From contig JACCIC010000093.1 of the NCBI GenBank assembly GCA_018907035.1, positions 1,802,001 to 1,866,000 on the forward strand: a DNA stretch of 64,000 bases, in the 5' to 3' direction. This document shows, piece by piece, positions 30,390-57,815 of this stretch (within the stretch, counting starts at the first letter, position 1; each line of letters opens with the position of its first letter). Below the pieces are notes generated by a model, which saw only the letters and a program-made list of their open reading frames with translations, was not told the origin of the DNA and ran no database searches. The translations under genes were made by a program, and so were the position numbers. The DNA comes from Sycobia sp. Sy_11 (Eukaryota > Arthropoda > Insecta > Hymenoptera > Epichrysomallidae).

Positions 30390-30399
30390 ATGCGGTCCG
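30390..30399 (+). CDS. serpin exon 1 (10 coding nt, start)
   Basis: ATGCGGTCCG then donor GTAAGT. The leftover G joins TA of exon 2 to give Val, and the result MRSVTVILVVALSAS is a textbook signal peptide. The start is chosen because no ATG in exon 2 lies before the hydrophobic core. The intron is 4.1 kb. Confidence 0.85.
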
Positions 30400-33072: not shown

Positions 33073-33130
<58 letters not shown>

Positions 33131-36100
33131 TATGCTATTAATTCAAGTTTTTAAAAAGCTGAAAAATTTGAGTAATATGAATGTCAATTCTTGTTATATA
33201 TACCATTTTATAGGTAGAACGCTACATTTCGGTCCTACATACATGACGAGATTTTATTTTACCGTACAACCAATTGAGAAATTGCATTATACTAGGTCGC
33301 AAATAGGAAGCACATCTATAATAATGATCGGATTGCCATATTACTTTAAAATTTCCAGGTGATTGTTACTCGTGTTCATGAAAAATCTGACTTAAAAACG
33401 CGTTCCTTAAAAATTGGAGATGGCATTGGATTACTTATTGAGTAGATTGAGTTAGTGTGAGTCTCAAATGTTGATATATCAGAATAGTTATAATTGTATA
33501 ATTTAATACTAAAATATAAGTTAAACATCAAAACGTAATAGTCATTCGTATTTAAATGGAAATTTTTTAAACTTTAAGTTAAAAATATCTTTAATAATTG
33601 TCCGTTATATGGGCTTGTGTATATTTATATGATAAGAATAATATAAAAGATACCAGATGCTATCGGTAAAACTATTTTTTTTATAAATTAAGTATACGTA
33701 TAGTACCTTATCTATTGATTCATTTATGATTCATGTATTATTAATTCTCGTATACACAAGTGCGTCAGTACTCTATACTCTTATTTTTGTAAAATAAATT
33801 AAATTAATAAATTCAATTTATAACGATACGATGAAAAATCCAAGAAAATGGACTCAGCTGCCCTGTTAAAAAGCCAAAAATGTAGTACAAATACTAAAAG
33901 TGTACCGAAATGTTTATAATTCGTTAATAATATGTGAGCTACGGCACTTTTAAGTGTTATTGAAATTTGAAACATAGAATTTTGAATATTTACAACTTCT
34001 GTGCAAACTAAAATAAGTAAATTTCATAAAAGTAAATTTCATAAAAATTTTCAGCAACCATTGGATTAATGCCTATATGCTATATCGTATAAGAGACAAA
34101 AAAAATTATATCGGTTATTATATGTATATAAAATTAAGAAATTCTTTGATCTAAAATTATCGCATCACATCCATTTGCAACGCGTTTAATACATATGGAT
34201 AAAAAATTATACACGAGTCTTTAAAAATAGCACCTACATGTGAAAAAAACGCATACATCTGAGAATACCAATACTCTCTAGACAGAAGAATTGCAAAGAA
34301 TTTTTTTTATGTCTCTTGATACGAACAATTGAGACAGCTGCCTTCAAGTAGGAGCAAAAATGTTTGCAGACTCGGATATATTAATGTTCGGAGTTATTGC
34401 TCCTATTACATATATGTATATATATTAAGTCAATTATAAATTAATTTAAGCATTAGTTGGTAGTACATAGATATGTTTCTTATTTTTTCAAAAATTAAGA
34501 AAGAATTTTCCCTTTTTCCTTTTTAGTAACCGTTATTTTGGTGGTAGCACTAAGTGCCAGTTTTATAATGGCCGAGGACAAGATAGAGCCACTCAAACTG
34601 GTGTCCGAAGGAGCTGAAAGCTTTGCTACAAATTTGTTCAAGGTATGAATCTATTATTCGCTTTTTACCTTAATTCCTAGTCGGTATATATTTTTTCCAT
34701 TTAAATTTCTGCATTTTGTAAACTAGTAGCTTTCTATATTTTAAAGTTTTTACAATTAAAATTACTGTAGATCTATACTATTACAAATATCACTACGTTT
34801 TAGAAATAACTTGAAATTGTTTAATTCTCTCGCAAGGTCGTTCCTGATAAAAGATTAAATTAATAATACCACATAATTTACTAATACGGGTAAAGAAAAT
34901 GCAATTTTCACAACAAGGCTACATTATCGATCAATTTTTTTAGGAAATCGCAAAGCAAAATTCAAGTGAAAACCTTATCACTTCGCCGTTAAGCGCTCAC
35001 TTGGTCCTATCAATGGCTGCTTACGGTGCAGGCGGTAACACCGCTAAACAAATGTACCAATCCTTGAATCTGCCCACTGAGGATGCCGTTGGTCACGAGG
35101 GCTTCAAAAATCTGATTGCTCGACTCTCGGTACGTTACTTCGATCAAAAATAAATTTTTGGAAGGTTTTTAGATAATTAGAACTTGCGGTAAAAAATTAA
35201 TGTAATAAAAATTTCTACCAATCTTTTTTTTTTATTGTAATTTTCAATTCAATTTTGCCTATTGACCCAATAAATAAATAAGCCAAGTAAATTGAAACAA
35301 AAATTGGTATTTACAAACAAAATATTTAAAAAGCAATATGTTTTTATTTCAATTAAATTATGTCATTTGAGCCCCTTTAACAAATATATGTTACTATAAA
35401 CTTACTATATTCTTTTTCAATGCATGGTTTAATTAATCGCCTATGCAGAAAGATAAAGTTTAGACTTGTAGTGATTCTTACTCGGACAACTGATCTTTAT
35501 ATTGATGTGATTGTCGCAGGGCATTGAGAACGTGACTTTGGAGGTAGCCAACAAAATGTATCTAGTTGACGGTCTGGAGCTAAAATCTAGCTTCAAACAG
35601 TTAACAAGTGCTTCGTTCAACTCGGAGACTTCTCAGCTGGATTTGAATAAACCAGAGGAGACGGCACAACTAGTCAACGATTGGGTCAAAGAAAAAACAC
35701 ATGAAAAAATCTCGAGCATTGTTGATAAAGGTCAGTTCAATTTACTGTAATATCAGAGTGGCTTTAGTTGGGGAGGGGGGGGGCTCGAGGTCCATGCCTA
35801 GAGATCCACCCACCCAGCCCCCCTTCTCCCTCCGCGAAATATAATTTCTAAAAGTACAACAAATGAATAATATTTTCCAAACATAATGATTTATTTTAAT
35901 ATTAACAATGCAAAAATTAAAAGAATTAACACACTTGACTAGATTCAGAAAAATTGGTGTTATTTTCCGACGGCCTCTTCGGCTGTTACGTCATTATCAA
36001 GGTATAAGTGAACAAATATCTTTGAGTAATACACACATATATTAAAATTAATTCACAATCATGCAAAAAGTAAACAACAAAAACATTAGAAATAGCGGAA

Positions 36101-38595
36101 ATTATGATAGTAATAAATAAAGGTAAAAATATCATTAATGATATGAAGAACCTGGTTTCGTCCCCTATACTTAATCGCCTCTACATTATAAAATAATCAC
36201 CTCCGGAGGTTTTCCCACAATGTTTATTGTTAAAATTCGACCTATTGGACCTCACATTTTCCTCTGTAAAATCCTGCTCCGTTAAGTTTATGTACTCGTG
36301 TGTGTGCGTATACCTTCATAATGGCGTAAAGGCCGAGACAGCCGTCAGAAAATAAAAGCAACTTTTGTGAAACTAGCTAAGTGTGTAAATTCTTTTAACC
36401 TTTGAATTATTAATATTTTATTCTGTTTCATCAAGTGATAAGCAAGTCTTCAATCAATTATGTTTTATTTTATCTTTTGCATACAGTGCTACCAGTTACA
36501 CATAGCTGACAAACAAAAAGGTTGTCTGCTGATATATATATATATATATATATACACCCCGTGCAGGTTTCAAGCCTTACCAATGACAAAGACAACCCTG
36601 TGTAATATTGTACATACTTATACTGTTTATAAAGCATTTACTAAAAAATTAAAAAATTCTGGCTTGTTAATTTATATATTCTGTATCTCCTATTTATTTG
36701 AAAAAAAATATTATTTATAACTTTAGTAAACTAAATTTAATTCCATATTAATTTTATTCTTATAGACAAGCAAATTATTATAAACAAAACGTATCAATTA
36801 CTGAGCACGTTTCAATTTTCAATTATTTTCTGTTCTTGATGAATAAAATAGTTGGATAGGATCTTTTTTATAAAAAAGATCATTTGTATGAAAATTATGT
36901 ATAATTATGTTGTCATTTTTTTCGTATTATTTAAGGAAATAGTCGGGAAGTAAGATTTTAAATGTTTAAATTAATTTTTTATTTCATTTCTGTAACGAAA
37001 CATTTTATTTATATAAATAGTGTTTAACAAGAAATGTTAATTGAGGCTATTGCTGAAACAATCATTAAATATGCAAAATCGATTTTTTTTTAAATAAATA
37101 CTGAGATATTAATCGTAAATCAATAAAAAAAAAATAGTTGTTAGACCTTTAAAATGCCTATAAAATAATCCCTGTAACTTTGCAGTCGTTAATTTGTTTT
37201 TGTGCAAAAAGTAAAAATAGGATAAAATAATCATATTTCACATACGTAATCCTATTAGGAAAAAAATTATGACTTCATAATCGTCAAAGAAGGTGGCTTC
37301 TGCCAACCACTATATATGTCTCAAATTTCAATGAGCTATATGTTTAATAGTTTATCAAAAATACCTATCTTTACAAGGTCATGTATTTTTTTGAAACGTG
37401 AAATATCTAAAAGATACGCTACATGTAACTTATAAGACTTAAAAATCTATCTAAGAATAAAAAAAAATTTATTGATAATAAATTAATATCTAATTATTAT
37501 TTTGAAAAAACAAACTGTTCATGTTTAATCATTCTTTAAAGATAGCCTCTCCAGAATTATAATCTCCAGATATGAACTATTGTATGATTTATCTTTGGCG
37601 TATTGCCTACATGAATATGCAAAGAAACTGCTTTTCGTATTTTTTTGTATATTTGTTAATGTCGTATTTGGAAAACCGTATGCAGTCGAGTCTTTAGTTT
37701 TGGTGTCCATCGATAAATGTTCCAATTAATTTATCAGAAAAAAGGCTAATTTACCAGAAAAAAATACATACTTGAATACAAATTATATGTTAAGATAGCT
37801 CTAACTATAGTTTAATTTTTTATAGATGATATAAAACCTGACCTCCGCCTACTTCTCCTGAACGCTGTTTACTTCAAGGGACAATGGGCTACTGCATTTA
37901 GAAAGGAAGATACCAGACTAAGAACTTTCCATATCGATGAAAAAACTGACAAAATGGTACCGACTATGTTCGTTTCAGGAAGCTTCCAATACGGTGAACT
38001 GCCAGACCTGAAAGCTAAGTTCGTCGAACTCCCGTATCAAGTAAGTCCATCGTGATAAATAAAGCAATTTATCAAATAGCTCCGAAGACTTATACGATTT
38101 CCTTTATGCCGTTTAGAACAAAGACTTGAAAATGATTATCATTGTGCCAGACGAAATCAATGGCTTAAAAAGTATTGAAGAAAACTTAGAATCGTTCAAC
38201 TACACTCGCCTGGCTAATGAAGCAGGAAAAGAGAAGGTTGAATTGTTCTTGCCCAAATTCACAGTCGAGAGCAAAATCAATCTGGAAGAACCCTTAAAAG
38301 CGGTAAGTTAAATATGCAACTGTATCTCAATACTCAGATCCATTAAAATTTATTTATTGTTATTTCTCAAATTGATTTCACGAAACATTTTAAATCATGT
38401 ACAGAATATCGATTGTAATTTGAACACCTGTTTTCGGAAAATTTTTAAATATTATGCAATAATTTTGACGAATTAAGTAAAAAATTATAAACGCCCCATA
38501 ATACGTGATTTCAGAAAAATTTTAAAAAGTTACTCTACCGATTCGTTCTATAAACTCAAATTACAGGTTTCAGTATGTGCGAAATAATAATAAAT

Positions 38596-38649
<54 letters not shown>

Positions 38650-39639
38650 GCTAACAAACGAACGATTATATAATGATAACAACTATCTCTCAGGACTTTA
38701 AAGGAGTTATCGAATGTTATTATTATGATCCTGCTGCTGACTATGCTTACAAAAATATGAACATTAACAAAAGGAATGTTGACTCGCAAGAAATTTTCTA
38801 GATTACAACAGATTCTTAATGACTGATTAAAAATAGTGATATTGAAACGCTCTAACTAATAACTTGCAAACTTTTGCGTGACAACAAAATTATTTTATAC
38901 CAGCTTCGTGATTTATCGACACATACGTGAAAACAGTTAAAGTCGATCAAATAATTAGCAAGAAATGCAAAAATCAAGCGTATGTGTTTTAATATGTCCC
39001 TTTCGTGTGCCCTTTTCAGAACGATTTTATTGAATCCAAACATAAATGACTTTTACAATTTTATACAACATAATATTAAATTGTATTGTGATAAACTACT
39101 TTTTAAATGACAGGAATTAGATAATATTAATTATATTTTTAATTTAGCTGTGTTTTAATAAAAAATATTAATGTATTGTCATAATTTCTTTAAAAAAGGA
39201 ATTAATTAGCATACATAGTTCTAAATAAATATTTATTGAAACAAATAACTATTTAAAGTTCATTTATGCTGATAAAATTTTTAGGTGGGTATGACCGACA
39301 TGTTCACTAACAGTGCTGACTTTTCCCAAATTTCCAATGAACCTCTAAAGGTCGGCAAAGTTCTTCAAAAAGCTTTTATTGAAGTGAATGAAGAAGGAAG
39401 CACTGCAGCTGCGGTCACTGGTGAGTTTTTATGTAGTTCAATTCATATGTTACTACTTTTTGTGTCCATTCTGCTTTTACTTCGCTATTCTGAAAGTTCT
39501 TTAACTTGAAATAGTCTAACGGTTTGCATCATAATTTTAGTAGCTTAGAATTTAGGTGATGGTATTATATGTTGTCTATTCTTACTCTATACTTGCTTTG
39601 TTTGCTTTTCCATGTATTTTCATACATACATACATACGC

Positions 39640-39698
<59 letters not shown>

Positions 39699-40550
39699 TG
39701 GATGTTAATTTATGTTGCTCGAGTATATGATCAAATTTTTCGTTCACTTGATTATTTAATATACCTATATAAATATTTCTTGCGTTTTGTTCAACAGACG
39801 AAACCTTTTTTATGTCGACTAAAGATCTTTGCATGAAAAACGTTATTTATGCTTTTTATGTAGATATACTATATTCATTCAAAACAAAATTACTTTCAAT
39901 AGTTTCTGAAAACATATATATAATAGACAAATAATCTACTTTTTACAAAAGTAATTCATTGCATGCTTAATTTTAGAATATTTGCTAAAATAAGATTTTA
40001 TTATAGCAATTTATACTATGTACATTGTGTTCCCCGAAAAATATATTTTTCATTTCACTGGTTATAAAAAAAATCTTTTTCATAAAGACTTGATTCTTCG
40101 AAAATATAGTTAATTATTTTTTAAATTATATTTTATAAAGTTTGATAGCATATTTTATTTAAATAAATTGTAAGTTGTGCAATTTATCTAAAAAATTGCT
40201 TAATTTACATAATTAAAAAATATTAATTTATATTTAGAAACGTTTACATTTACAATTATAATACAGTTTTGAATATTACATCGAGATTACATATTTAGTA
40301 TTAGATAACACTTTATAAAAGGTTTTTTAAATTAATTTGAATAATGAATTTGATTACTTTTTGTCACTGTCTTGGTTATAATTTTTTATTATAATCAAAA
40401 GTGATGATTAAGAAATATTTAGCGTCTTAATAGTACTTTTATGAAAAAGTATCAAATATATGTTTTCAAAAATTTGAGTGGGGTTATATAAATGGTTCAG
40501 TAATTAAAATCACATTTAATCACGCTTAAAAATTAAATAAATATTTATAG

Positions 40551-40604
<54 letters not shown>

Positions 40605-43600
40605 TTAAATCGGTTGTAATAAAAACCAAAGAAATCTATATTAATCAATATAATGATAACGGGTGAAATTATAATCGCTTTTTCTGCCTAATTCGTTTCA
40701 AATCTTAAAAAATGATTATCTATATCTTGTCGACAACATTTTCGTAATCCAGTATTTCCATATACCTGGATCTATTATTAAAAATAAAAAAATTAAAAGC
40801 TGGAACATGACTGAAAGTTTATTAAACCTGCCAAATTTAATTACTCAAACAACACCTAGGAAACTTGAATAATTTTGACTCTGATACGGTATATATAAAA
40901 ATGTGCGACTATCTGAATTTTTAAGATTGCGTCAAATTCGGTCAAAAAGAACACTTATCAAGAAAAGAGCTTTAATTTAGTATTCTATTGAAGTATTTTC
41001 AAATTTACATGCTTAAAACTTTACTAACACCAACGCAATTATCAAACTAAATGTATTCTGACTTAGTCTAATTCAAAGGATATTTGTAACTAATTGCTTG
41101 CAACAAATGATGTAAGTAAAGTAGGAAATCGGCAAAGTTCTAGACCTAACCACTTAGTCGTAAATCATTTGTGCTATTTCATTATTGTTGATATATTTAA
41201 TTAATGAAATGCATTATAAATATATAATAACATAATTATATACTTAAACACATCTCAATCATATAGTATAATGCACCTTACGTATACGCCATTTAACATT
41301 ATATTTATAGTTCCGCCATAGTTAATAATATAATTTTATTATATTATTATTATTATATTTATTATCAAATATCAATTATTTGTATTAGACCTAAACGGTA
41401 GCGACCAAAATTTGAAGGTGGTTTATAACTTTTGACTTGCAGATTTTTTATTTTTATGATTAAAGTTAATGATACATAAAGTTATATGCACATATGTGCA
41501 TACGTGAGTGCATAAAATACAATCTCGTGTATTTAAATTGATTTTGAAAACAGTCATTATTGAAAACTACTTATTAATTTCTGTAAAACATTAAAAAAAT
41601 AATTGGACTACAATTTACAATAGTATAACAACTTAATTTATATTTATACAAATTACAATTCGTAATAGATCAGTTTTAGATATTTTATTTTTAACAATTC
41701 AAAAGATATTATAGATTATATATTATTCACTTTGATCATAAAAATAAGAAATATCTGCTAGACTAATGATAATAAATCATTTTCAAATTTTGATCGGTAT
41801 CGCCTGGTCTAATACCTTTGCCTTTTTAGTTTGTCGTACTAACTCATAGTCTACATAAGGTCATGTACCATCGATCAACAAAAGCCAAGAAATAATTTCC
41901 ATTTTCAATTTAATTCTTTTAATTCTTCTTCGCCTCAAAAAGTTTCAACTGTTCCAGCCATTAATTTAGCAAAAATTGCCAGTCCTGACAACAGATATGA
42001 GTCTACCTAAAGCACAGCTAATCTATGAAATTGTAATCTTCCCTCCATGATTTTCTTGTTTATCCACGCTCCTTTATTTATAACATATTAAGCATTGTTT
42101 TGAAGTACTAATTGTACTGTTTCAGCCTCCATAGATTAAAAATAAAATTAAATAGTTATGATCGACCTTTGTAGGGTCAAATAACTGTAAGTTAGAATAT
42201 GAATACGACTAAATTTTTTAAAAAAATTTCTGGATTCTAATAATCAATTATTTAACCGTATGGCTCTACAGAGATCGATTGTAACTACTTAATTTAGTTG
42301 ATTCACTTGTTTCTTTGATCGACATTTGTATCGGTACAAATGGCATCTGCCCGTTCTTTAACGCATGTAGAATAAACTGTCCTACATTAATATTTAGCCT
42401 AATTGTGGATAAATATTAGAAAGAATATTATCTCTTGCAAGGCATTGACTCTTCCGCTAAAACAAATATCCCAAATATGAGATAAGCTAAAACATAAAAA
42501 AAATTCACTAAAATTAACCTATTATTTCAAAATTATATATAATACTCTAAAAATAGAAATAATGGAAAATAACAATGCCTTATCAAATATATAATAATAA
42601 ATTTTTAAAAATGTATTAAAATTAAGCTTATCATATATCTATCTAACACTATAGCGAGCTGTGTCAATAAATGTTTTTTATTACAGTTAATCACATCATT
42701 TTACATTTCTAATCGATAAATGTAAAATTCTAAAAAAAGTTTTATATTGACTTTAAGTTAGAAATGTTTAATCATTCTAAAAATTCCGAATAGGATCAAT
42801 TTTATGCAAATAAAATAGCATTTTCTAAAGCTTTGAGAATGTAAAAATATATTCTTTGACAATGTTTATCAAAATTTTCAATTCAGGAGTTAAAAAATTG
42901 CTAATTACATGAATCTTTTATTAGGCATGCAAATGGTTTATTTTAGCACCATAATAATGTAAATTAAACAAATTTTTATAATAATGTTTTCACATTGTAT
43001 TCATTATTAAAAATAATGCACGAAAGATTCCTAGTTATTACAAAATTCAAATATTTAGAGGCTTAAAGTCATTGTAAACTATAATAAACTCTATTCAAAA
43101 TCAAGAATATGGATCAATAAATTACAGGTTCCAGAACTAATTTAACCCCTATACTAATAAATCTAAACTAAATTCTTTTATGTTCAATAATAGCTTTATC
43201 TAATTATGTTACATATTCAATCTTGTTCTAATATCACTGTCTGTGAACCTACATTAATAAAAAATAAATCAAACACGTTATAAAATCTTCACGAAATTCA
43301 TAATCTAACATCAAATCTGTTAAATAACTCATAAAAATCTGTTAATAACTCATAAAAATGCATAATTGTAAAAAGAAGAGTAAAATTTTTAAAAAATTAA
43401 CGTTTACATTATTGGGCAATCTCCTTATATTGGATAATAATTTTTTAGCCATTAAAATTGTTAAGCTGACAGCAACTTTCGAGCCGCGACGACTAAGGCT
43501 GAATATCAATAGACCATTCTTCTTCTCAATAATTGATAATAAGAGCAGGCTATCACTTTTCACAGGATATATTCTAGATCCGAAATAGAACCAAACACTT

Positions 43601-46600
43601 TATATATTTCAATTGCTATGAAGAACATTGTAATAGTATATATTAAATATATATTCGGCCTTATAATACCTATTTGTGTCTTTTATAATGTAATAATAAA
43701 TTAGAATTTGTTATACGCATAATAAATTAATATTGAAACAAATATTGCATGGCTCGAACTTATTAATTACTAAATATTATTCTAATTTATTTACGTTATC
43801 CTCTACTTAAAATATAGATGCGATTAAGTGTATTCGTATACCACGCATTCCAATAATACTTTGAATCCAATATACACCTACTAAATAATTAATACGTGTA
43901 AAAATAATCGATAAGTACTTTCTGATAAAGTACAATAATTTTTTTTTAAGGATGTTAACAAATTCGAATTAATATATTATTCGATGTAAATATTTCGACA
44001 CCGATGTTAAACAGTTTTAAAGAACATATCTAACATTTGCGTATATTGTTACTTACTTTTAGCTCTTGAAATCAGGCCTGCTAGTATCCTTATTGAAGAT
44101 TTTCAGCGGAGGGTAATAAAAGCAGATAAACCATTTATGTTCAAAATAATCGACAAGAAAACAAAAACTGCTATCTTCATGGGACATGTAGACACAGTGT
44201 CTTTTTCATGAAAAATATAAGCAACAAGGTACTCTTCACTAAATTTGCAATAGGCAGTCTGTTGTTAGATGAGAGCCGGAATACATTTAGTAAATCAATC
44301 AGACTAGTTAAATAAAAATAAAAAAATTGTACTTGGATTGACCGATATAAAGCACGCTAATGAATATTTTTATCGGTTTTACAATCTTTTAATATAATTA
44401 TAATGGCAGTCACGCGCCAAACGTCGGAGTTTGCAGTTGCGGAAAATTTTAGAGAATATGGTAGTCAGACTGTCGTTCATTAAAAAATTAATATTGATTT
44501 TTATATTTCAGATGAAATTCATATATATTTTTATCGTTTTTATAATCTTTATCCAATAATCGAATTATATTAATATAATGGCAGTCGGACTGTCCATGTT
44601 GATAATCACCCGCGTAGAATCCGAAATAAAAATAAAAATAATCTAAAACAATTTCATTGTACTTATGTCGACTGCCCATTTTTTATTTTATTTTTAGATT
44701 GAATTGATTGGACTGTAAGACCAATAAAAAAATATTTATTAATTTAAAAATAATCTATATGCTAAGTTAGTAAAAGACAACCTGAATGCCCCCAGCACCT
44801 AAATTTACCGTATCTTTTTCAATCTTCCTCCGACGCGTCGAACCACTTTGATTCATCTTCAGGGACTAAACTGAAAATTCTACTCACTTCACATGTAGAT
44901 TCGTTTAAATCTTAATTTTTATTATTTTTATTTTATTTCTATTTTGAGTAGTAATTTTTATTTTATATTCTACGTCGTTGATTATAATCAAGGACAATCT
45001 GACTGTCATTATATAATTATATTTAAATTATTGTTTAAAAATTATTAGACCGACAAAAATATTTGTTAATTTTTTATATTTCAAATGTCATATTTTAGAT
45101 TTAATGGGCAGGATTGTAAATAAGGACAGTTTAACTGCTATGATAATTATATTAGTTTATAAACAATATAGATATTTATTAGTCTATACTCAATTATAAA
45201 GAATATGAAATCTTTATTATTATATTCTTATATTACTACATTAATTTATGTTAAAGGAGGTGTTGCGATAAATTTTAACTTGATGATAAGTTATTATACA
45301 ATGGTTTTATACATAAAGTTTTATGAGCAATCCAATATTATCCTTAACTAATACCCTTCAGGAGATTTAAAACCAAATTGTTCGTGCTTTTTATTTCAAA
45401 AAAATTTGAAAGTTAACTTAGAAAATTATCTTAGAAATGTATTTTAAAAATTACAGAAAAATATTAATTATTATAATGGTTTGAGTTGATTTGCTACTGG
45501 TAAGACCGTTAGACACGGGACGCCGTACGGCAACGCGCTAGTTGATACAGATTGTCCATCCTTTTAATACAGATGATCATTTTTTTTTTCTGATTGAAAT
45601 TATTTATTTGATAATAATTAAAGAAATTAACATTTAACTGTTTGAATAAAAAGATTAATTCTATAATTAAATACGAAAAAACTGTTTTTATATTTTTTCA
45701 ATTTTCAAATTTTGCTTGAGTATCCTATTTAATTTTTTGTAAAATTTGTATGTAAAACCGGTCACCCATTGAATTTTCGTACTACACCCAGATTCTACCA
45801 CTGAAAACCTATACTTAAATTTAAATGTCATACAGGACTCCTTTTCTATATCATAAATTTATATAAAGATTCATCGATTTATTATAATTTTATTTAGTCT
45901 TTAATTATCGTTCATCTACTGTAAATTTCATACTAAAGCATATTAGTAAAATTATAAAATTATAAAGCACATTAGTAAAATTATAAAGTGCTTTGTTTAC
46001 AAACACATCGTAGACCTCCGTCGCTGATTAGCGCCGGTATTTGGAAGCATAAATAAATCGACGTTAATAACATAAAAAAAAATTATAAAATAAATTAAAT
46101 AGTTTTTTAAGCATATATTAAAAATCTTAGAGTTTAGTTTTATATTATATTTTAGTTAAAATAGGTTGGGAAAACTAAATACTTTAATGAATTTAATAGA
46201 GTTCAATGTAGAGGTTTTGAAAAATAAATTTAAATAAATATTAAGGTTGTATTTACAATTAATGACCTCACCTAATTTAATTCAAATTTGTATACTTATG
46301 TTTTTTGGGGTAGTGATTATGAATATCATAGTATAAAATTGAACTTTTTTGGTGAAAATTAAAAAGTTCCAATAATATTTTAAACAAAAAAATTAAATGT
46401 CATTATCAAAATACGTGTTCTTCGTTTTATCTATTTTTTCTGTAGAAGTATTATTTTTTTTAACAAATATCTTTAAAAGTACTGATATTAAGTACACGTG
46501 GAACAATGTTGGAAATGAAACGGAAGGATGTTAAAAACTGCGATGTTACCTTTGAGTCCATTTTCATAAAAAATTTATGGCTTTTAAAGAAAAATTGTAT

Positions 46601-48895
46601 GAAACCAAAAAGATATAATTTTATGAGAACTAAATTTTTTTTTGAAAATTTTATTATTTTAGAAAATAAATTTCATTTGTTTTATGGTTTTTTCAATGTT
46701 TTTATCATGAAAATCCAATTTATGAAGATTAATGGAAAATTTCTCCAAAATTTATCTCAAATTCAGTTATACGGCCTTCTAATGAAATAAAAATAGTATT
46801 GATTTCAATTAAGCATCTAATTCAAATAAGGAAGATTGATTTAAATTTAAAAAAATTTTTTTATTTCAAATTAATCTTCTATTAAACTGTATCTACAATA
46901 TTTAATTATTTTAGTGAATTGACTATTTTTTTCGATGTGCTTAAATTTATACAGAAATTCGCACATTTATGTGAAATATTATTTATATATAAGTAATGTG
47001 TAATCTAATGTATTTTATAACTGTCGCTGGTCAGAATATAATACACTACTAGAATTCGAAAATTTGAAAATTGTAATAGTATTTATATTTTTACTTTTAT
47101 ATATGACTCTTATAAAGATACACGCGCGCGCACGCAGACACACACACACACACACGCACGCACGCATGTACGAACACACGCACAAACACAAGCATATTCA
47201 CGCACGCACGTACGCACGCGCGCGTGCACACACACACACATCTCTGTCGATCAAATTTGAATGAAAATATAGTATTGCCTTTTATAATATAAAAATTTAT
47301 TATATAATTAAATATATATCGTTTATTATACAATACTATAAGTCGATTATTAAAAATACATTTTACGAAAACATTCTTGGTTCAATTTTATTCTGTTTAA
47401 AAAACTAATATAAATAATGTGAGAATATTATATACTAATTTCCAAATTATAAAACAAAATCTCTACATCCAATCTTATCCAATTAATAATCAAGAATAAA
47501 AATAACATTTTTATCATACGGCATTGTAACTTCCAGTATAATATTTTATGAATAGAGGTATAGATGGAAATAACGCGCGATATTAAAGTATTCTGATGAA
47601 TGTTAAAATTAATTATATTTTATTAAATTAATTAAAATACTATATTAATATCTAAAGAAAGTTGTCGAAATGTAATTTGGATTAATATTTTTTTATAAAT
47701 ACTAAAAAAAACTAATTTCGTAATCTAAATGATTTATTTATTCTTATAGAATAGGAAAATTAATTTAGATTATCATAAAACTTTATAGAGCCTTAGATAA
47801 CTTCCAAAATGAGTATAAATTATTTTGTTATTTGCTATATCTTTATATTAAATTTCGTTTTCCTTTTTAAATAAAAATAAAATAGTTAAAAACTCTAGAA
47901 AATTTACCTTTTTACAAGACGGGTAGAATTAAAAATGTGTTAAAGCTTTACGCAATCATTGTTCTGAAAGTTGTTAATATTTGTGGTTTGAATAGCTTAT
48001 TGTAATACGTCATATGGCATTTTTCAGTGACACAATTGAGAACTCGTGCAGGCATTATACGGGAGGATCAAAAGAGAATAGTAGCAAATAGACCGTTTTT
48101 CTTCGTAATATTCAACAGTAACACAAAAGTTTTAATCTTCAGTGGACACTTCAACCATCCATAAGTTGGATAAACCTCAAGCTGCACCACTAATTTGATC
48201 GATTAGTTAAAATTATCAAGTCAATTTTTTCATTATAATTAAATAGAATTTTGTTTGATTCATATAGCCTACAGTTCTAGGCAAAAAGGAATTAATCGAT
48301 TAGTTGGATAAAATAAATTTTAATTTATGAACGAAAATAGAATTATGATAAATTATAATATTTATTTCCACCTCTTAGCGCAAAAAAATGGTTTTGACAT
48401 TCATATACATGTATGAGTATTACACTGCATTCTATATGTACTTTATACTTTCAACAATTACTTTAAATTGTTACATCTACATTTTTGGCTTTTAATTTTA
48501 CAGATATTTATGAATACTTATACTTACACCACTCAAAGCTCGAAATAACAATTTGAACGTAATTTTTCTAATATAGTGGTGTAAAACACAACCCAGATTG
48601 ATGTGTAAGTGGATTCTTACTTCGTGCGACTTACTTTCCTGCTTCTTTTGGGAATAAACTGTTCCACGAAACATGCAATTAACTTCAACACGCGGACTAT
48701 AATGTATTGTGACATCATCGTTTCATACAACTTGTAGTTCGCCGTACATACATTTAAAATATTGCCATTGTACAATTTCGTTTACCTGATTCGTATCTCT
48801 ACATATTCTCACACGTTATTGTCCATTCAGAAAAATATTTGCCTTCTTATACAAAATAGCTGACAGATTTTGGAATTTTTGTAAACGATTAATAT

Positions 48896-48958
<63 letters not shown>

Positions 48959-49252
48959 CCCATCGCTATATGAGTAAATCCATATTAATGTAAAGTATCA
49001 AAATATATTGCTCTAATTCTGTTATACCCTGTTCTATAAATAAACTTAATATTTATTTGTAATATCAAAAAATTCTTTTAATGTTCTATTTGAATGATAA
49101 ATTTATATTGAATTGAACGGCAAATTTAATATCGCTAAATTTGGAACTGTCTAAATTAATCTATCATATATCGTTAGCTTTATGATTTGATAGGAGTTAA
49201 ATAATCGAAATTCTTGTAGAAGTTTATTGAAATGTAATGCATTTCAATTATA

Positions 49253-49300
<48 letters not shown>

Positions 49301-50316
49301 CTTAATATTGTTAAAAAGAGATTGAATTTTACAGTATTCAGAATTTTACTAACAAAATATTCTTTTTTTAAAAAAAGTTTTTTACTTTAAAACGGTTTAA
49401 TAGCTTAAATCTTAAATGCAAGAAAAATGAAAAATATATTACATGATGCATTTTTAACTATTTTAGACTTAATATTAAAAATAAGTTTTTTTCTTGTTTC
49501 GCCAGGTATCTCTGCAATATTGGATTCAGCTATACGCAGTGTACCTTTACTCCGTGTGGATAGGTCTTTTATGTTCAAGATTGTACAAAATCATAACAAC
49601 GTAGTTCTCTTCGAGGGTCATGTAACAGATCCATGAGCTTAAGAATCATTAGCCTTATTAACAGTTTATTGGAAATTTCGTATTTCTAACAAAAATTTAA
49701 CGACCTGAGTACATTATCCTAGATACTGCATTTACTTCAAATTACTTTATATTAACATACATATCGTGCTTTAGATAATTCTAAACCATAATTTTCTTCC
49801 ACGACTCTACCAATTTGGAATGATATTTTCTGAATTTCTAAATATTTTTTTCTCCATATTCATATTTGTTCACAGATATTGTCCACTTTTTCCCCATACC
49901 TGGACCTCCAAGAATCATTACATATGTAGTGGTGGACCGACCTTTTCACTATGCTATTGTTTATCATGACCAAATAAGCAGTAGCGAAAACAGTTTGTTT
50001 CAAGGCAGTGTTAGACAACCGTCAGCTTGAAAAGTAGATCACGTTATAATTTCTCTTTGCAATAATTTTTGCTTCTCTTTTGAATGTCTAAATTACGTTT
50101 TGTCATTAATTTAAATTAAATTAAATTTTTATGGCATCATTCTAATAAATTCGAATATAATATACGTAAATATAATCCTGAATATGGAAAATATGCCACT
50201 TTAATTTAATAAGTATCTGCTTAATATTGTAAAAAATATGAATTTGAATAAAAGTTCTAAAAATTTAGAAACTTAACAGGCTAATAAAATGGAGGTATAA
50301 CAGATTTATTATGTAT

Positions 50317-50371
<55 letters not shown>

Positions 50372-51944
50372 TATACTATATAGATTCTTTTAAAAGGATA
50401 TAATTGGCTTTCATTTTCATATTAGTTTTAATGTTTTATTACAAATTTGCTTGTTATTAGTAAAATTATGAGTGGAGAAATGCTGAGAAGAAGTACTAAA
50501 ATCACCGCTGGCCAGTGTCGTCTATGGCGTTGGTGGGGCTTGAGGCCTATACTTCAGGGGGACCTTATATATATATCGAGGGTCTGGATACGTGGGACTC
50601 TAGATACGGGCCGCATGGATCCCTATACAAAGACTGTGCCACTGGCACCTGGGTAATCCCTTTGTAATACCTTGATGTGCTATCGCAGCCCACATAGCTC
50701 CGAAAGTTGAATCCATAACTTTAGTCTTTGGATAGCTCAAATTTTGCATATTTTCTTTAACTATAGTTTCTTACATTGTTTATAGAAAATTCACCGAAGC
50801 TCAACAGCTCGAAAACAATTTTCTCACACGGTAGTATAAACTATCTGGACCAATTAAGATCTCCATAATAACCCGCAGTCCCTTCTTTAATTTGGACAGA
50901 TCCTCCGCTCCATTGCAATCTATAATTGCATCCATTAGTGCCCTAGCTTTAGATAATTTTAATGCAAATTCCACATTAATTGATCCTCTACAATCGATTA
51001 CTTATCAACCTCATTTCGATTTAGCAGCTAGGAATGCCGATCATGAGTTCAGATCCTATGAATGTCTTCTTGCTCTTAATTATATGGCATTTAACCAGTT
51101 TGCCAATAAGTGGAAGTACCATATAGCACTGCCCAAACAAACGGGGCAAAATTCCTGAAATTATTAAGGGCGGTCAAATCACTTTGACTATCCAGACATG
51201 TTCAACTGTTTTCTCTTATATTCTTAGCTCTATGCCCCCCCCCCCAATTTTCCAGACAAATGACCATTAATTCAGTCTATAATACAACCGCATAGCTTTC
51301 CTACTTAATTAGAATCTCTATGTTACCATTTTTCCTATAGATACAATCATACCTCACTCCCATCTAACTTACAGAGCCATCTGTAATGTAGAGCTCTCTA
51401 TCTCTCAACATGCATCATTGGTTAACTGTCCAGACTTCCAGTACACCGTTGCTGATTATATATTTCTTGTCCAATATAAATTTTTCCATGGATTTATCCC
51501 CATGAATCTGGATAATTCTTTTCTTACATATATTTCTAAGTAACAGAGTATATCTGCTTTTTTCTTTACCACCAATAACGTTTTTAATTCTTAAGACCTA
51601 TTTAACAGTCTCTATCTTATTTGCAATTTCAGTCGCCTCACTTCGAATAACACCTTTAAGACGATAACCGACATTGTCTTATTATCTCCGGTACTTCTCC
51701 TCAGTACAAGGTCTTCAAGTGCTATAAACTTTTTAATAATTGTGTGAACCCCCATGCTTAACCACTATATCAGCACTGCATACGTCAGTCTAAATCTACC
51801 TGAATGACTTAGTAAATTTACACATATTGTATGCTTCATACGTAGTATCTATCAAAGTATCAATATTAAAACAAGTAAGGCTGTAAGTGTGCTGTAAAAA
51901 GCGTATACAGTTGATACCTTTTAAACGTTTGGATACTCTATCCG

Positions 51945-52038
<94 letters not shown>

Positions 52039-54402
52039 CCTTACAACGTATCTGCCCGATATATTAGTCGTATGTAAAAGTTTTACTTATGAGCTGTTGT
52101 TGTTTGTTGTTTCTTATGATTTTAAGTTGACCCAAAAAAGTAACTTAAAGTGAATGTCTTCGAGTCTATTTGATCATTAATTAGAGAAAGAACTCTGAAG
52201 AGTCTTCTCCATAGCAATTTGTTCTGTAAGTATACTGTTCTTTAAGTGTGAGAAGCTCCAGGAGTTTGTCGCATATATGTTTGTAAGTATTGTTAGAATC
52301 TTGACATAAAATGATGCAAGGCTAATGGGTTAAAAATCGTTCACTCAAATATATCGTAGATTACCAGTTCGCTTATGGTAAGCCAATAGTTAAAGCAGTT
52401 TCTACTTTGTACTATAATTTCCAAATGTGATGGTTTAGTGCTACTTAAGGCTTGATTTTATACTTATTCGATACATAAACATAATGAATTTAATGTACTA
52501 GTTTGGCTGTTGAAAACAAAGATTCCATACAGTACATTCGAAAAGAGCATTTACTCGAGTAAATATAATCAAACTTTTTTCTCAGTGGAGGCCGAAGGTA
52601 CGTATTCGCCAGTTAGGTTAGCCCCAGCTTTAGGTATTCAAATCATTGGCTCTATGATGTGTACTCTATGACTTTCACGACGAACACTACATCAGCAACT
52701 ATAGTTGACTCCTATACCTAATTTGCAGATATCTATGTCCTCCTCCGCCATAAAAAAACTAGATAAATGCTCCAATCAAATAGATAACAGTCTTGTCATA
52801 TATATTAGAAATAACTTTCTTGGTTTTTTAAAGATTTTCTTTCAAATTTTTCAACCCTTTATATGACTTTGAATACATATTTTCTCAGCTTCTAACATTG
52901 CATGTGATGATTTCCCCTCATCTGATTCTATTTGACATTGGGATGTTATTTAATATTATTATTTTAATATTTTTACAAATACTTTATTAAATTTATAATA
53001 AATCTGGATCAAATAGAATTTTCTCACTTTCTTGGCTTTTTAAAGATTCCCTTTAAAATTTTAAATCCTTTATTTGACCCCTAATACATATTTTCTCAAC
53101 TTTTAACATAGCATGTAATCATTTCCCCTCATCTGATTCTTTTTGACATTGATATTTAATTTAATATTATTAATATTTTATTATTTTTATAATAAATCTG
53201 GATCAAATCCATCATCCTTAGTTTCCTTACGATCGATTTGCCACACTCTAGCCCAGTTTTTTGAAGATTTTCGTAATATTTAAGATACATTTGTTATTTG
53301 TATTTACTTTTAACTTAATTTATTTTCTAAATAACAAAAAAAATCATTTTCGAATAATTTAATATTTTCTAATATTTTTATGAAAATAGAAAGTAATTTT
53401 TGTATTGTACAAATAATTTATAATCAGTGTAAAATAATTTCCGATTTGGTATACCGTAATAAGAATCATTGTAAAAATCCTCAAAATAAATAGATTGTAT
53501 TCAAAACCTCCTATAAAGTACATTAAACTTCACTTGACTTTGTATTATATTGTAATTTTTCAATAAATTAATTGGCTATTCTTATATTCAACTTTTCGGA
53601 ACAATAAATAACATAACTGTTTATTTTTTATTTTTAAAAAAGTTTATTTATAGTATTTTTTTTAAATTGTTCAAATGTTAGACATATTCATCTAAGTTAC
53701 TGTAAATATAAATTTAAAAAACAAAAAGTTCATTAACCTGATCAATTCAGAGGAACAAAGAACATTTTTCTACCATCCTGACATATTGTTCGAAATATTA
53801 TATACAGATTTGATTTTAAAACATCGTATATAACGTTTTTTTCTACTGTGAAAAATTTAAACAAATATATAATTAATGACAAGTATTTCTTATTTCTTTA
53901 ACTAAATATAATCGTTTTCTATGCTAGAATAAAAAATTGGTAAAACTGAAAATAATTAAAATATTGATATCTTTAAGACTATCAAAAAATTCCCGAACCT
54001 TTAAAAATTTGTTGACTTTATTACCATTTTGTTTTTATTCCAAAAATAAATTTAACAAATATAACTATACAGTTTATTATATTTGGTATAGACGCAAAAT
54101 GAAAAAAGTTAAAAACCAATTAAGCTAAGGAATTATATAAAGATTATATATACTTTTGGATTCGTGAATGATTACTTGATAGACCAGTAGGAATTTATAT
54201 TAGCTTTCTAATATTATAAAATTTATTTGACTTCCAAATATTATTTTTAAATGCTTTACCTGTAGCGTCCAACATTGCGCTGTTTTCACTACCCCTCACG
54301 TTGACTTTGAACGTCAATCAGCCATTCTACTACCAAATTGTAAAACAGGTGAATGATAAGGAAGCAGTAACATTATTCTCTGGAGTGATCAGAATACCTT
54401 AA
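30390..54402 (+). CDS. serpin gene with six alternative C-terminal (reactive loop) exons
   Basis: Shared coding exons are 30390-30399, 34527-34642, 34944-35129, 35520-35730, 37826-38040, 38117-38302 and 39285-39420 (1060 nt). One of six cassettes follows: 43449-43588, 44063-44211, 48028-48164, 49506-49636, 49876-50030 or 54266-54402. Every combination is an exact multiple of three, giving proteins of 399, 402, 398, 396, 404 and 398 aa, the usual serpin size. Serpin features: signal peptide MRSVTVILVVALSAS, helix A/B region SPLSAHLVLSMAAYGAGG, signature NAVYFKG at residues 187-193, strand motif LFLPKF, and hinge EEGSTAAAVT (residues 344-353, P17-P8), whose small residues indicate an inhibitory serpin. 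The exon junction falls just after P8, so each cassette supplies its own cleavage site plus strands s1C, s4B and s5B. The layout matches insect serpins known to use alternative RCL exons (Manduca serpin-1, Drosophila Spn42Da). A role in immune or melanization protease control is likely by family but not shown here. Confidence 0.95.
32017..32110. repeat. ACACGGGACGCC...GTCCATCCTTTT repeat, copy 1
   Basis: ACACGGGACGCC at 32017-32028 and GTCCATCCTTTT from 32091 lie in serpin intron 1. The same two words, in the same order and orientation, occur at 45513-45566 in the cassette intron with a shorter spacing, so both are probably ends of one transposon family. Confidence 0.4.
33076..33127. repeat. 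(AT)n microsatellite
   Basis: AT tract in serpin intron 1. The rest of this 4.1-kb intron is AT-rich with no recognised feature apart from the ACACGGGACGCC repeat at 32017. Confidence 0.95.
34527..34642 (+). CDS. serpin exon 2 (signal peptide core, helix A start)
   Basis: Acceptor CCTTTTTAG, donor AAG|GTATGA. Encodes the hydrophobic core of the leader, then AEDKIEPLKLVSEGAESFAT and NLFK, the start of the mature serpin fold. Confidence 0.95.
34944..35129 (+). CDS. serpin exon 3
   Basis: 62 codons in phase 0, acceptor TTTTTTAG, donor GTACGT. Contains NSSENLITSPLSAHLVLSMA, the highly conserved serpin helix B segment, and AGGNTAKQM. Confidence 0.97.
35520..35730 (+). CDS. serpin exon 4
   Basis: Acceptor TTGTCGCAG, donor G|GTCAGT. 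Reads GIENVTLEVANKMYLVDG and later NDWVKEKTHEKI, the conserved strand s2A and helix F region of serpins. Confidence 0.97.
35891..36425. mobile_element. foldback element with ~120-bp inverted arms in serpin intron 4
   Basis: The left arm (35891-36012) and right arm (36306-36425) are clear reverse complements. Matching blocks include AAAAGAATT.ACACACTT, TTATTTTC.GACGGC, TTACG.CATTAT.AAGGTATA. The 290-bp middle has no open frame, only a CCTCCGGAGG palindrome near 36205. Each arm contains a CTTGATAATGACG-type motif followed by a hairpin (GCC..GGC inside GACG..CGTC) and GGAAAA. Non-autonomous; the family is not recognised. Confidence 0.75.
36534..36555. repeat. (AT)n microsatellite, short
   Basis: Short AT tract just downstream of the foldback element in serpin intron 4. 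Confidence 0.85.
37826..38040 (+). CDS. serpin exon 5 (NAVYFKG signature)
   Basis: Acceptor TTTTTATAG, donor GTAAGT. Holds LLLLNAVYFKGQWATAFRKE, the serpin signature around strand s3A, and MVPTMFVSGSFQYGELPD. It completes the Asp codon split with exon 4. Confidence 0.97.
38117..38302 (+). CDS. serpin exon 6
   Basis: 62 codons in phase 0 after a short 76-bp intron. Contains LKMIIIVPDEINGLKSIE and VELFLPKFTVES, typical s2B-s3B and s6A serpin segments. Donor GTAAGT. Confidence 0.97.
38599..38647. repeat. (TA)n microsatellite
   Basis: TA tract in serpin intron 6, between exons 6 and 7. Confidence 0.95.
39285..39420 (+). CDS. serpin exon 7 (hinge; last shared coding exon)
   Basis: 45 codons plus one base. 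VGMTDMFTNSADFSQIS is the serpin breach-region motif, and VLQKAFIEVNEEGSTAAAVT is strand s5A plus the mobile hinge. It ends after P8 with donor G|GTGAGT in phase 1, the phase shared by all six cassette acceptors. Confidence 0.97.
39643..39692. repeat. (TA)n microsatellite
   Basis: TA tract 220 bases after the hinge exon, at the start of the cassette region. Confidence 0.95.
39977..40080 (+). pseudogene. possible decayed serpin cassette (weak)
   Basis: Acceptor-like AATTTTAG is followed in phase 1 by EYLLK, a stop, then DFIIAIYTMYIVFPEKYIFH and FTGY. The final FTGY and the spacing back to the IY pair resemble cassette A (PFFFSII..LSLFTGY), but the loop portion is about ten residues short and a stop interrupts it. 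AT-rich DNA could give this by chance. Confidence 0.3.
40552..40600. repeat. (AT)n microsatellite
   Basis: AT tract between the weak pseudo-cassettes at 39977 and 40753. Confidence 0.95.
41749..41880 (+). pseudogene. decayed serpin RCL cassette
   Basis: After AG at 41747-41748, the phase-1 frame reads EISARLMIINHFQILIGIA, then WSNTFAFLV, CRTNS, a stop, ST, a stop and GHVPSI. This lines up with cassette D, which begins GISAIL, has RSFMFKIV at the matching place and ends GHVTDP. The closing nine bases GGTCATGTA are identical to cassette D. Two in-frame stops and a loss of two codons make it non-functional. It is best explained as a dead duplicate of a cassette in the same intron. Confidence 0.5.
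43128..43256 (+). pseudogene. decayed serpin RCL cassette
   Basis: A good acceptor (AAATTACAG) is followed in phase 1 by GSRTNLTPILINLN, then a stop and a one-base frame change. The next bases TCTTTTATGTTCAA are identical to the SFMF block of cassette D. Further on, ATCTTGTTC..TATCAC corresponds to the LF.GH strand, and the total length (129 bp) equals a working cassette. It lies only 190 bases before cassette A. Confidence 0.5.
43449..43588 (+). CDS. serpin alternative exon A (RCL and C-terminus)
   Basis: Acceptor ATTTTTTAG. 45 residues, AIKIVKLTATFEPRRLRLNI and then NRPFFFSII..LFTGYILDPK, TAG. The NRPFFF and FTGYILDP blocks are the serpin C-terminal strands. By hinge spacing (P8 is the last residue of exon 7) the predicted P1-P1' is Leu-Thr, but this loop is long and the site is uncertain. 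Confidence 0.93.
44063..44211 (+). CDS. serpin alternative exon B (RCL and C-terminus)
   Basis: Acceptor CTTACTTTTAG. Reads ALEIRPASILIEDFQRRVIK, then ADKPFMFKIIDKKTKT, IFMGHVDTVSFS, TGA. Predicted P1-P1' Ala-Ser by hinge spacing. A GT donor follows at 44229 (CAAG|GTACTC), compatible with splicing to a shared 3' UTR exon. Confidence 0.95.
44270..45150. repeat. dispersed repeat family, copy 4, between cassettes B and C
   Basis: The arm at about 44541-44640 (GGCAGTCGGACTGTCC, GCGTAGAATCCGAAATAAAA) is repeated inverted at about 44940-45050. The core holds TGTACTTATGTCGACTGCCC, GGACTGTAAGACCAATAAAA and, on the minus strand at 44866-44837, CCCTGAAGA followed by a 5-bp GAATC/GGTTC hairpin and GAC. 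It is the best preserved copy with both arms. Confidence 0.7.
45513..45566. repeat. ACACGGGACGCC...GTCCATCCTTTT repeat, copy 2
   Basis: Second occurrence of the word pair found at 32017; about 30 bases separate the two words here. Confidence 0.4.
47120..47240. repeat. (CA)n/(CG)n alternating purine-pyrimidine tract
   Basis: About 120 bases of mostly alternating CA and CG steps with ACGC.. and GCGCGCGTGC runs, the kind of sequence that can adopt Z-DNA. Confidence 0.9.
48028..48164 (+). CDS. serpin alternative exon C (RCL and C-terminus)
   Basis: Acceptor GGCATTTTTCAG. Reads VTQLRTRAGIIREDQKRIVA, then NRPFFFVIFNSNTKV, LIFSGHFNHP, TAA. Predicted P1-P1' Arg-Ala at residues 7-8, the type that inhibits trypsin-like proteases such as clip-domain enzymes. 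The NRPFFF and SGHF blocks place the C-terminal strands exactly. Confidence 0.95.
48899..48955. repeat. (AT)n microsatellite
   Basis: AT tract between cassettes C and D. Confidence 0.95.
49257..49297. repeat. (AT)n microsatellite
   Basis: AT tract 210 bases before cassette D. Confidence 0.95.
49506..49636 (+). CDS. serpin alternative exon D (RCL and C-terminus)
   Basis: Acceptor TTGTTTCGCCAG. Reads GISAILDSAIRSVPLLRVDR, then SFMFKIVQNHNNVVLF, EGHVTDP, TGA. The usual Pro before Phe is Ser. Predicted P1-P1' is Asp-Ser, an unusual acidic P1, if the hinge spacing holds; an alternative is Arg-Ser four residues later. Confidence 0.94.
49876..50030 (+). CDS. serpin alternative exon E (RCL and C-terminus)
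   Basis: Only 239 bases after cassette D. Acceptor TTTGTTCACAG. Reads DIVHFFPIPGPPRIITYVVV, then DRPFHYAIVYHDQISSSENS and FQGSVRQPSA, TGA. DRPF and FQGSV mark the C-terminal strands. The loop is Pro-rich (PIPGPP), which is atypical for an insertable RCL, so inhibitory activity is less certain for this isoform. Confidence 0.9.
50320..50369. repeat. (AT)n microsatellite
   Basis: AT tract 290 bases after cassette E. Confidence 0.95.
50450..52050 (-). mobile_element. decayed non-LTR retrotransposon, RNase H region
   Basis: On the minus strand the translation near 51480-51180 includes VLEVWTVNQ, then ELYITDGSVS and, further on, AVVL, a stop and TELMVI. The TDGS and TEL blocks correspond to the first two catalytic positions of an RNase H domain. 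Upstream on the same strand, ALEDLVLRRSTGDNKTMSV and KEKSRYTLLLRNI give further open stretches in several frames. Many stops and frameshifts, plus a homopolymer C run at 51236, show that it is dead. It lies in the serpin intron between cassettes E and F. The exact clade is uncertain. Confidence 0.5.
51946..52038. repeat. (CT)n followed by (CTAT)n microsatellite
   Basis: About 38 CT units grading into ATCT tetranucleotides. Confidence 0.95.
52812..53209 (+). repeat. ~200-bp direct tandem duplication
   Basis: The unit at 52812-53014 is repeated at 53021-53209. Shared blocks are CTTTCTTGG.TTTTTAAAGAT, ATACATATTTTCTCA, TTTCCCCTCATCTGATTCT and ATAATAAATCTGGATCAAAT. The two copies differ by scattered substitutions and small indels. 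Neither encodes protein. Confidence 0.85.
54266..54402 (+). CDS. serpin alternative exon F (RCL and C-terminus)
   Basis: Acceptor CTTTACCTGTAG. Reads ASNIALFSLPLTLTLNVNQP, then FYYQIVKQVNDKEAV and TLFSGVIRIP, TAA. Predicted P1-P1' is Phe-Ser at residues 7-8, the pattern of a chymotrypsin-type inhibitor. A donor GAG|GTAAAG at 54412 lies ten bases after the stop and can splice to the acceptor at 54797. Confidence 0.94.
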
Positions 54403-54797: not shown

Positions 54798-54905
54798 AAA
54801 CGCAAGTAGTCATCAGATTCAACAGTGATTTTGCAATGCTGTAGAGTAGACCTCCATCAATTTATTTCATCACTACTAATAAAGTTTTTCATAGATCATT
54901 CCATC
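54798..54905 (+). other. likely shared 3' UTR exon of the serpin gene
   Basis: Acceptor TTTTTCATTTTACAG at 54797 is followed by about 110 bases of non-coding sequence with AATAAA at 54878-54883. Cassettes B and F have good donors just after their stops (44229, 54412), and E has a possible one (GAAAA|GTAGAT). Manduca serpin-1 has the same arrangement: mutually exclusive cassettes joined to one common 3' UTR exon. The poly(A) position is approximate. Confidence 0.45.
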
Positions 54906-56544: not shown

Positions 56545-57815
56545 CATTAAGCGAGGTTTCTAGGTGCCACCCTATATACTTCAGATATTGGGTGAATACC
56601 GCAGGGAGAGCTTCCTAGTTTATTAGAGACATCTGATGACCGGAGAAGAAAGAGACTTAGTGCTCGAATGGCTCACGGTTCTGTACATGGGGCCAATATG
56701 TAGAACATTTCATATGACGGGATCCTTCGGATGCAGATGCCTGACGACAGCTTTCTAGTTGAATACGCAGATGATGTAGCAGCTTTTATTATCGCTCAGG
56801 ATTAAGACGCTGCACAGATGCGACTCAATCAAGTCATTCGCTGCGTGCAGAGATGGATGGAGAGCGTAATAGAGATCGTACTGCTGACTAAGGAGCGTAT
56901 TCCAAAGATATGCCTTATGTAGATTGAGGACACGACGGTGATTGCCGAAGTAGCCGTGAAGTATCTAGGGGTGACACTTGATCCCAAGCTGAACTTCTGG
57001 GACCAGAGAAAAAAAATGGCGGATAAGGCTGCCTGAGTGACAGCGCAATTTAGTAGGTTGATGGCCAATGTTGTTCATCCTGCACCCTACAAGCAGCATC
57101 TGCTCATAAGAGCAGCCAAATCCATCATGCGATACGGAACGGAGGTATGGGCCGATGTACCGAAAGCCCAGAAGTATAGAAAAAAAATGGCGGCAGTGCA
57201 ACGAAGAGGGGCACTTCGCGTCATGAGCACCTACTGCACTGTCTCTGAGTCAACGGTGCTAGTTATTGCATGTGTTATTCCCATTGATCTCCAAGCAGAG
57301 GAAAGGAAGATTATCCACCTAGAGAAAAACATTCTCGGTAATATTAAGGCGGCAAAACGCGCCAAAACTGTGACGACAATTGAATGGCAGAAGATGACGC
57401 GCTACATACGTCTTTTCAAAGTGAGGTGTTTCGTCTTGAAAGGAAGCACCTTAGAAGAAATATAGGTCCCGTTGATATATTATCTAGTGGATGCTGGATA
57501 GTCCTGAGGCGTGATCTAGAGTATCTTTTCTATTGTAAGAATATATTGAACCACAAAAGAAGGCTAGAAGGAGTATAAACTTCTACCTACTGGTAAATAG
57601 GATGGCGCAGTCCAGAAGTAATATCTATAAATGTTCCCTCGGCTGCATTTATATCATCGAAAGGAAAATGGTTTTAGTAGGTTCGAATCCTGCATACCCT
57701 AGGGCCGAATCCAGCGGTAGTCTCGAGATGCGACAGCTCTAGGCCGGAAATGAATTGAGTTGTCAGATGAATTTTCCACTATCCAATGAAAAAAAGATTA
57801 TTATTATTATATTTA
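56545..57815 (+). mobile_element. R1-like non-LTR retrotransposon, 3' part, decayed
   Basis: Reverse-transcriptase C-terminal part on the + strand: ETSDDRRRKRLSARMAHGSV, then NISYDGILRM, the catalytic box EYADDVAA at about 56770, and VKYLGVTLDPKLNFW near 56960. The thumb and downstream region KKMAAVQRRGALRV follows at about 57185, and IPIDLQAEERKII. This arrangement is that of R1-clade elements. In-frame stops and frameshifts occur at several places (for example after HGANM and after IIAQD). The 3' region ends with an ATT-rich tail after GAAAAAAAG near 57790. 5' truncated, as is usual for such elements. Its 3' UTR contains a tRNA-like T-arm word (GGTTCGAATCC). Confidence 0.85.

Follow-up and report, generated by a model that had tools for sequence, protein, structure and literature searches.

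A serpin-1-type gene of Sycobia sp. Sy_11 with one shared body and at least six predicted alternative reactive-loop exons

Insect serpins with exchangeable reactive loops

In Manduca sexta, serpin-1 combines one body with many alternative loop exons that join it at the hinge, which, by its title, is reportedly the subject of Jiang 1996, and in Drosophila the gene Spn42Da (Spn4) likewise carries alternative loop exons on one body. In the wasp Pteromalus puparum, one report describes a serpin-1 gene (PpSerpin-1) in which seven exons are shared and exon 8 varies, and gives an earlier count of 16 C-terminal forms (PMC5691223). Another account gives 21 C-terminal forms for this gene and places its splice point at the end of the hinge GSEAAAVT plus one G (PMC10513286). 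According to the same account, C-terminal alternative splicing is found in 192/731 genes of the insect serpin clade, with the splice at the +1 hinge position in 161 of those 192; part of the insect serpin-1 clade has both a secreted and an intracellular N-terminal form, and in Pteromalus the intracellular form lacks a signal peptide (PMC10513286). The arrangement of one body with alternative loops is already well described in other insects, close wasp relatives included.

The DNA analysed here, referred to as the window, is a stretch of 64000 bases from Sycobia sp. Sy_11 (GCA_018907035.1, contig JACCIC010000093.1, positions 1,802,001-1,866,000). It contains one complete serpin gene, made up of seven shared coding exons (30390-39420) and six terminal cassettes. 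A preliminary description of the locus had proposed one serpin body with alternative reactive-loop exons, and this proposal is strongly supported by the anatomy of the gene and by the published alternative loop exons of its relatives. We put the probability at about 0.94 that one serpin-1-type body is joined by splicing to any of six or more alternative last exons, giving differing protease traps. The gene resembles Pteromalus serpin-1 in its seven shared exons followed by an alternative exon 8 and in the splice at the hinge plus one G, and it shares the protein start MR..TVIL; it differs in that six cassettes are seen in Sycobia against the 21 forms of Pteromalus, most of them not assignable one-to-one.

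We propose the following mechanism. The seven shared coding exons would encode a signal peptide together with the serpin body as far as hinge residue P8, and the pre-mRNA would then be spliced to a single last exon out of six or more alternatives. That exon would bring the reactive loop, beginning at P7, as well as the C-terminal strands and the stop codon. The common body would serve as scaffold and hinge and the chosen cassette would supply the bait residues. By the serpin suicide mechanism, the products would each capture a different serine protease class: the protease would cut the loop, the loop would enter sheet A and the protease would be held in a covalent complex. We infer from the sequence that the splicing takes place, that its products inhibit proteases and that the P1 residues are those assigned below.

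The shared body and its chalcidoid relatives

All exons of the gene lie on the + strand. Coding exon 1 (30390-30399) encodes MRS plus one G, the start of the signal peptide, and ends at a phase 1 donor, gtaagt; being below the usable length for the body HMM, it was placed on the basis of the homologous start in Pteromalus. The joined start, MRSVTVILVVALSASFIMAEDK, is signal-peptide-like and parallels MRTPTVILALALCVTCTMAEDK of the Pteromalus record P0001. The body HMM recovers the remaining shared exons, namely exon 2 (34527-34642, E 0.00035), exon 3 (34944-35129, E 3.6e-23), exon 4 (35520-35730, E 2.4e-23), exon 5 (37826-38040, E 2.1e-30), exon 6 (38117-38302, E 1.5e-21) and the hinge exon 7 (39285-39420, E 2.1e-22). 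The six exons upstream of the hinge exon, from 30390 onwards, are absent from the stretch on which the preliminary description was based. The seven exons have GT donors, AG acceptors and an unbroken phase; together they total 1060 bases, end in phase 1 and encode 353 residues up to EEGSTAAAVT. Exon 2 also contains the internal Met of MAEDK, present in Pteromalus P0001 as well, which could be the start of an intracellular form.

Direct reading and translation confirm that the hinge exon ends in phase 1 right after EEGSTAAAVT, as previously claimed: its last codons read ...EVNEEGSTAAAVT plus one G, followed by the donor gtgagt. We take the final residue of this motif to be P8. Inhibitory serpins have a proximal hinge with short side chains, and GSTAAAVT, which is common to all six isoforms, fits this rule, with Val as the single larger residue. 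Val is likewise the larger residue of the Pteromalus hinge GSEAAAVT (PMC10513286).

In a whole-protein Pfam scan, run with isoform 4 alone, residues 33-396 match PF00079 (Serpin) at E 1.1e-111 over profile positions 3-370 of 370. Among the best 120 of 1557 matches, the nearest is Pteromalus puparum serpin-1M (63%), followed by Nasonia vitripennis alaserpin X5 (61%) and Phymastichus coffea (60%); none of these 120 exceeds 63% identity, and Sycobia's own protein is not among them. We assume that LOC100122505 is the alaserpin record P0002. The solved structural relatives include conserpin, 4p0f (E 4.4e-67), 1sek (E 1.3e-61) and 1k9o (E 6.8e-61). We take 4p0f ("Serine protease inhibitor 4, isoform B") to be Drosophila Spn42Da / Spn4, which differs from the Sycobia gene in being diverged and in having other cassettes, and 1sek ("SERPIN K") and 1k9o ("ALASERPIN") presumably to be Manduca sexta serpin-1, which is lepidopteran and diverged.

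The body alone is 67% identical to that of Pteromalus over 352 columns. In a body tree of 26 rows, a split with support of 100/100 joins the Sycobia gene with chalcidoid rows, forming a set of 15 that comprises Pteromalus, Nasonia, Phymastichus, Copidosoma, Trichogramma, Eretmocerus, four further records and the window gene; the tree places the gene no more precisely than within this set. The body thus groups with Hymenoptera serpin-1/alaserpin genes, and several last coding exons start in the same phase at the hinge end +1. Judged by sequence, the gene is a chalcidoid relative, and most likely the orthologue, of insect serpin-1 / alaserpin as represented by Pteromalus puparum serpin-1 and Nasonia alaserpin.

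Six loop cassettes downstream of one hinge

The cassettes were searched for with an HMM built from 114 cassettes of other species, with the window's own sequences left out. These 114 derive from the best 120 of 1557 matched homologues, minus four without a hinge by pattern and two with odd-length ends; many are isoforms of one gene and hence not independent. Among 2869 ORF pieces of at least 15 aa, taken in six frames over 64000 bases, the HMM finds exactly six cassettes, at 30.2-47.3 bits (E 1.6e-13 to 3.6e-8). No further cassette was found on either strand of the window, the seventh match having E 0.18, and the best score in 20 dinucleotide shuffles of 39421-64000 was 10.0 bits, compared with 30.2 for the weakest true cassette. 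The last cassette lies 9.6 kb from the end of the window; the count of six is therefore a minimum, and more could lie past position 64000.

With a slash marking the predicted P1-P1' bond, cassette 1 (43449-43588, E 1.6e-13) begins AIKIVKL/T, cassette 2 (44063-44211, E 3.6e-8) ALEIRPA/S, cassette 3 (48028-48164, E 1.2e-8) VTQLRTR/A, cassette 4 (49506-49636, E 5.2e-12) GISAILD/SAIRS, the proline-rich cassette 5 (49876-50030, E 8e-10) DIVHFFP/I and cassette 6 (54266-54402, E 1.2e-12) ASNIALF/S. By direct reading and translation, an AG precedes each of the six in one common phase, phase 1, and all six are open to a stop at the last position given, as the preliminary description had stated. The resulting proteins would have 399, 402, 398, 396, 404 and 398 residues with cassettes 1 to 6, respectively. 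That all splice combinations are multiples of three also holds, but it adds nothing independent, because it follows from the shared phase and the in-frame stops. The strand motifs proposed for all cassettes, PF or SF with GH, GY or GS at matching spacing, needed correction: cassette 6 has GV, and, judged by eye on the translations, the spacing from P/S-F to G matches in cassettes 1-4, whereas it is longer in cassettes 5 and 6 by four and three residues, respectively.

More general searches were less discriminating. The Pfam Serpin profile gives bare cassettes 1-4 scores of 23.9-26.8 bits, slightly below its curated threshold of 27, and does not match bare cassettes 5 and 6. A database search with the six cassettes in tandem, preceded by nine hinge residues, returned 27 matches at E up to 10. 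None of these is named as a wasp's, both organism-named ones are bacterial, and most span 19% of the query, approximately the hinge piece with cassette 1; this search therefore lends the cassettes no independent support. We take the matches to be distant serpins caught by the hinge piece and cassette 1, and uninformative.

The six cassettes might instead belong to distinct serpin genes, as end pieces whose bodies have been lost, overlooked or misassembled, and the account of parasitoid serpins does report expansion by gene duplication too (PMC10513286). However, at E up to 1 the body HMM recovers only exons 2 to 7 of the same gene, and neither strand of the window has any second serpin body or other serpin body exon. 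With exactly six cassettes and only one body, the cassettes are therefore without bodies of their own here, and they share one hinge point and one phase at their starts. We regard separate genes as scarcely credible, and favour one body shared by the six cassettes.

On an approximate, home-made scale on which the constitutive donors score 3.1 to 7.9, so that weak donors may be missed, no donor scoring above 3 occurs within 350 bases after the stop of cassettes 1-5. For this reason cassettes 1-5 are probably alternative last exons, each polyadenylated at a site of its own. A 3' untranslated exon common to the cassettes is unsupported, since a donor above 3 follows cassette 6 only (54412, score 3.3), with an acceptor-like site seen by eye near 54798. 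The signal AATAAA occurs about three times per kb on the + strand and proves nothing about poly(A) sites.

In Dscam, long-range RNA pairing steers exon choice, and cassette choice might similarly depend on pairing of the intron behind the hinge exon with sites ahead of the individual cassettes. The duplex energies of the first 220 bases of this intron (39421-39640) with the 300 bases upstream of each cassette are, however, ordinary among shuffles: with 40 shuffles for each of the six cassettes, the fraction of shuffles as good ranged from 0.2 to 0.925. With this 220-base stretch as the part of the intron covered, steering of this kind appears very improbable for this gene. An Rfam scan of the window at gathering scores gave 0 matches.

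The window also holds repeats and pieces resembling mobile elements. Eight long AT/TA runs of 46-64 bases, between 33076 and 55041, and a 93-base CT run at 51947-52039 lie in or beside introns. On the - strand, 60330-60626 (by eye perhaps to about 61280) encodes HARYSSDLAHSDYFLF in a seemingly interrupted frame; we take it to be a mariner transposase pattern, and the 98 aa piece has no Pfam match. An open frame on the + strand at 57037-57462 resembles, in our estimation, the end of a non-LTR retrotransposon reverse transcriptase, and gives nothing above the Pfam cut-off.

Predicted targets and the sharing of loops among wasps

P1 was set at cassette residue 7 because residue 8 is Ser in 68/114 related cassettes; the choice also follows the Manduca numbering and an ungapped alignment in which the Ala of cassette 2 falls on the Met of IPMS in 6ee5 (Conserpin-AATRCL, with an antitrypsin-type loop). 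Loops one residue longer exist, for instance in Spn42Da-A, and each P1 may therefore be off by one. The predicted P1-P1' pairs of cassettes 1 to 6 are Leu-Thr, Ala-Ser, Arg-Ala, Asp-Ser, Pro-Ile and Phe-Ser. Under the rule linking the P1 residue to protease class, as stated in PMC5691223, the targets of cassettes 1-3 would be chymotrypsin-like, elastase-like and trypsin-like, and those of cassettes 4-6 unusual acidic, doubtful and chymotrypsin-like, respectively.

An acidic residue at position 7, as in cassette 4, is uncommon, being found in 4/114 related cassettes (three Glu, one Asp). Against the Asp reading, an alignment with conserpin that places a four-residue gap before it pairs a later Arg with conserpin's Arg, which would make the Arg four residues on an alternative P1. 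Should the Asp reading hold, ILD/SAIRS together with the internal Met start might yield an inhibitor of caspases or other Asp-specific proteases inside the wasp's own cells, and one gene would then serve for both blood-borne immune proteases and cell death; we consider this a long shot. The end of Phymastichus P0003 (GIWMID/SAM), with a loop one residue shorter, may be a counterpart of cassette 4, but cassette 6 gives it a slightly higher score (58) than cassette 4 does (54).

The preliminary description held the set of six loops to be species- or lineage-specific. When 15 homologue cassettes, hand-chosen from the best 120 of 1557 matches, were compared with the window's six, this was supported only in part, cassettes 5 and 6 having recognisable counterparts in other wasps. 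Cassette 5 is 49% identical to Pteromalus serpin-1M over 47 columns, and isoform M has an alignment score of 91 with it against 55 for the next window cassette. Three Eretmocerus ends each score highest with cassette 6 (86 against 43, 87 against 65 and 72 against 50). Taken by itself, the loop part does better than shuffled loops in cassette 5 (fraction 0.005) and in one of the three cassette 6 cases (0.025), the other two giving 0.09 and 0.135. For cassettes 1 to 4 the pairings are less strong or equivocal; the end of Nasonia X5, for instance, scores 83 with cassette 3 against 81 with cassette 2. The repertoire is, as its sequences compare, a mixture of shared and diverged loops.

In an alternative reading, use is limited to a subset of the six cassettes and the rest are decaying leftovers of exon duplication. 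High cassette turnover is inferred in published work, where Pteromalus M, the counterpart of cassette 5, served as the negative control in pull-downs (PMC10513286), and the Pro at the P1 place of cassette 5 is seen in 0/114 related cassettes. Isoform M was nonetheless detected in larval saliva, according to the same work (PMC10513286). Moreover, all six cassettes have an acceptor, an in-phase open frame, strand motifs and E of at most 3.6e-8, no broken extra cassette scores better than E 0.18, and counterparts of cassettes 5 and 6 occur in other wasp genera. We consider partial use unlikely, and prefer a gene in which all six cassettes would be available to the one body.

Our results add one more chalcidoid gene to the published picture of serpin exon gain and loss in insects. 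Fewer cassettes are seen in Sycobia than in Pteromalus and two of them are recognisable in other wasp genera, and the published picture is left unchanged.
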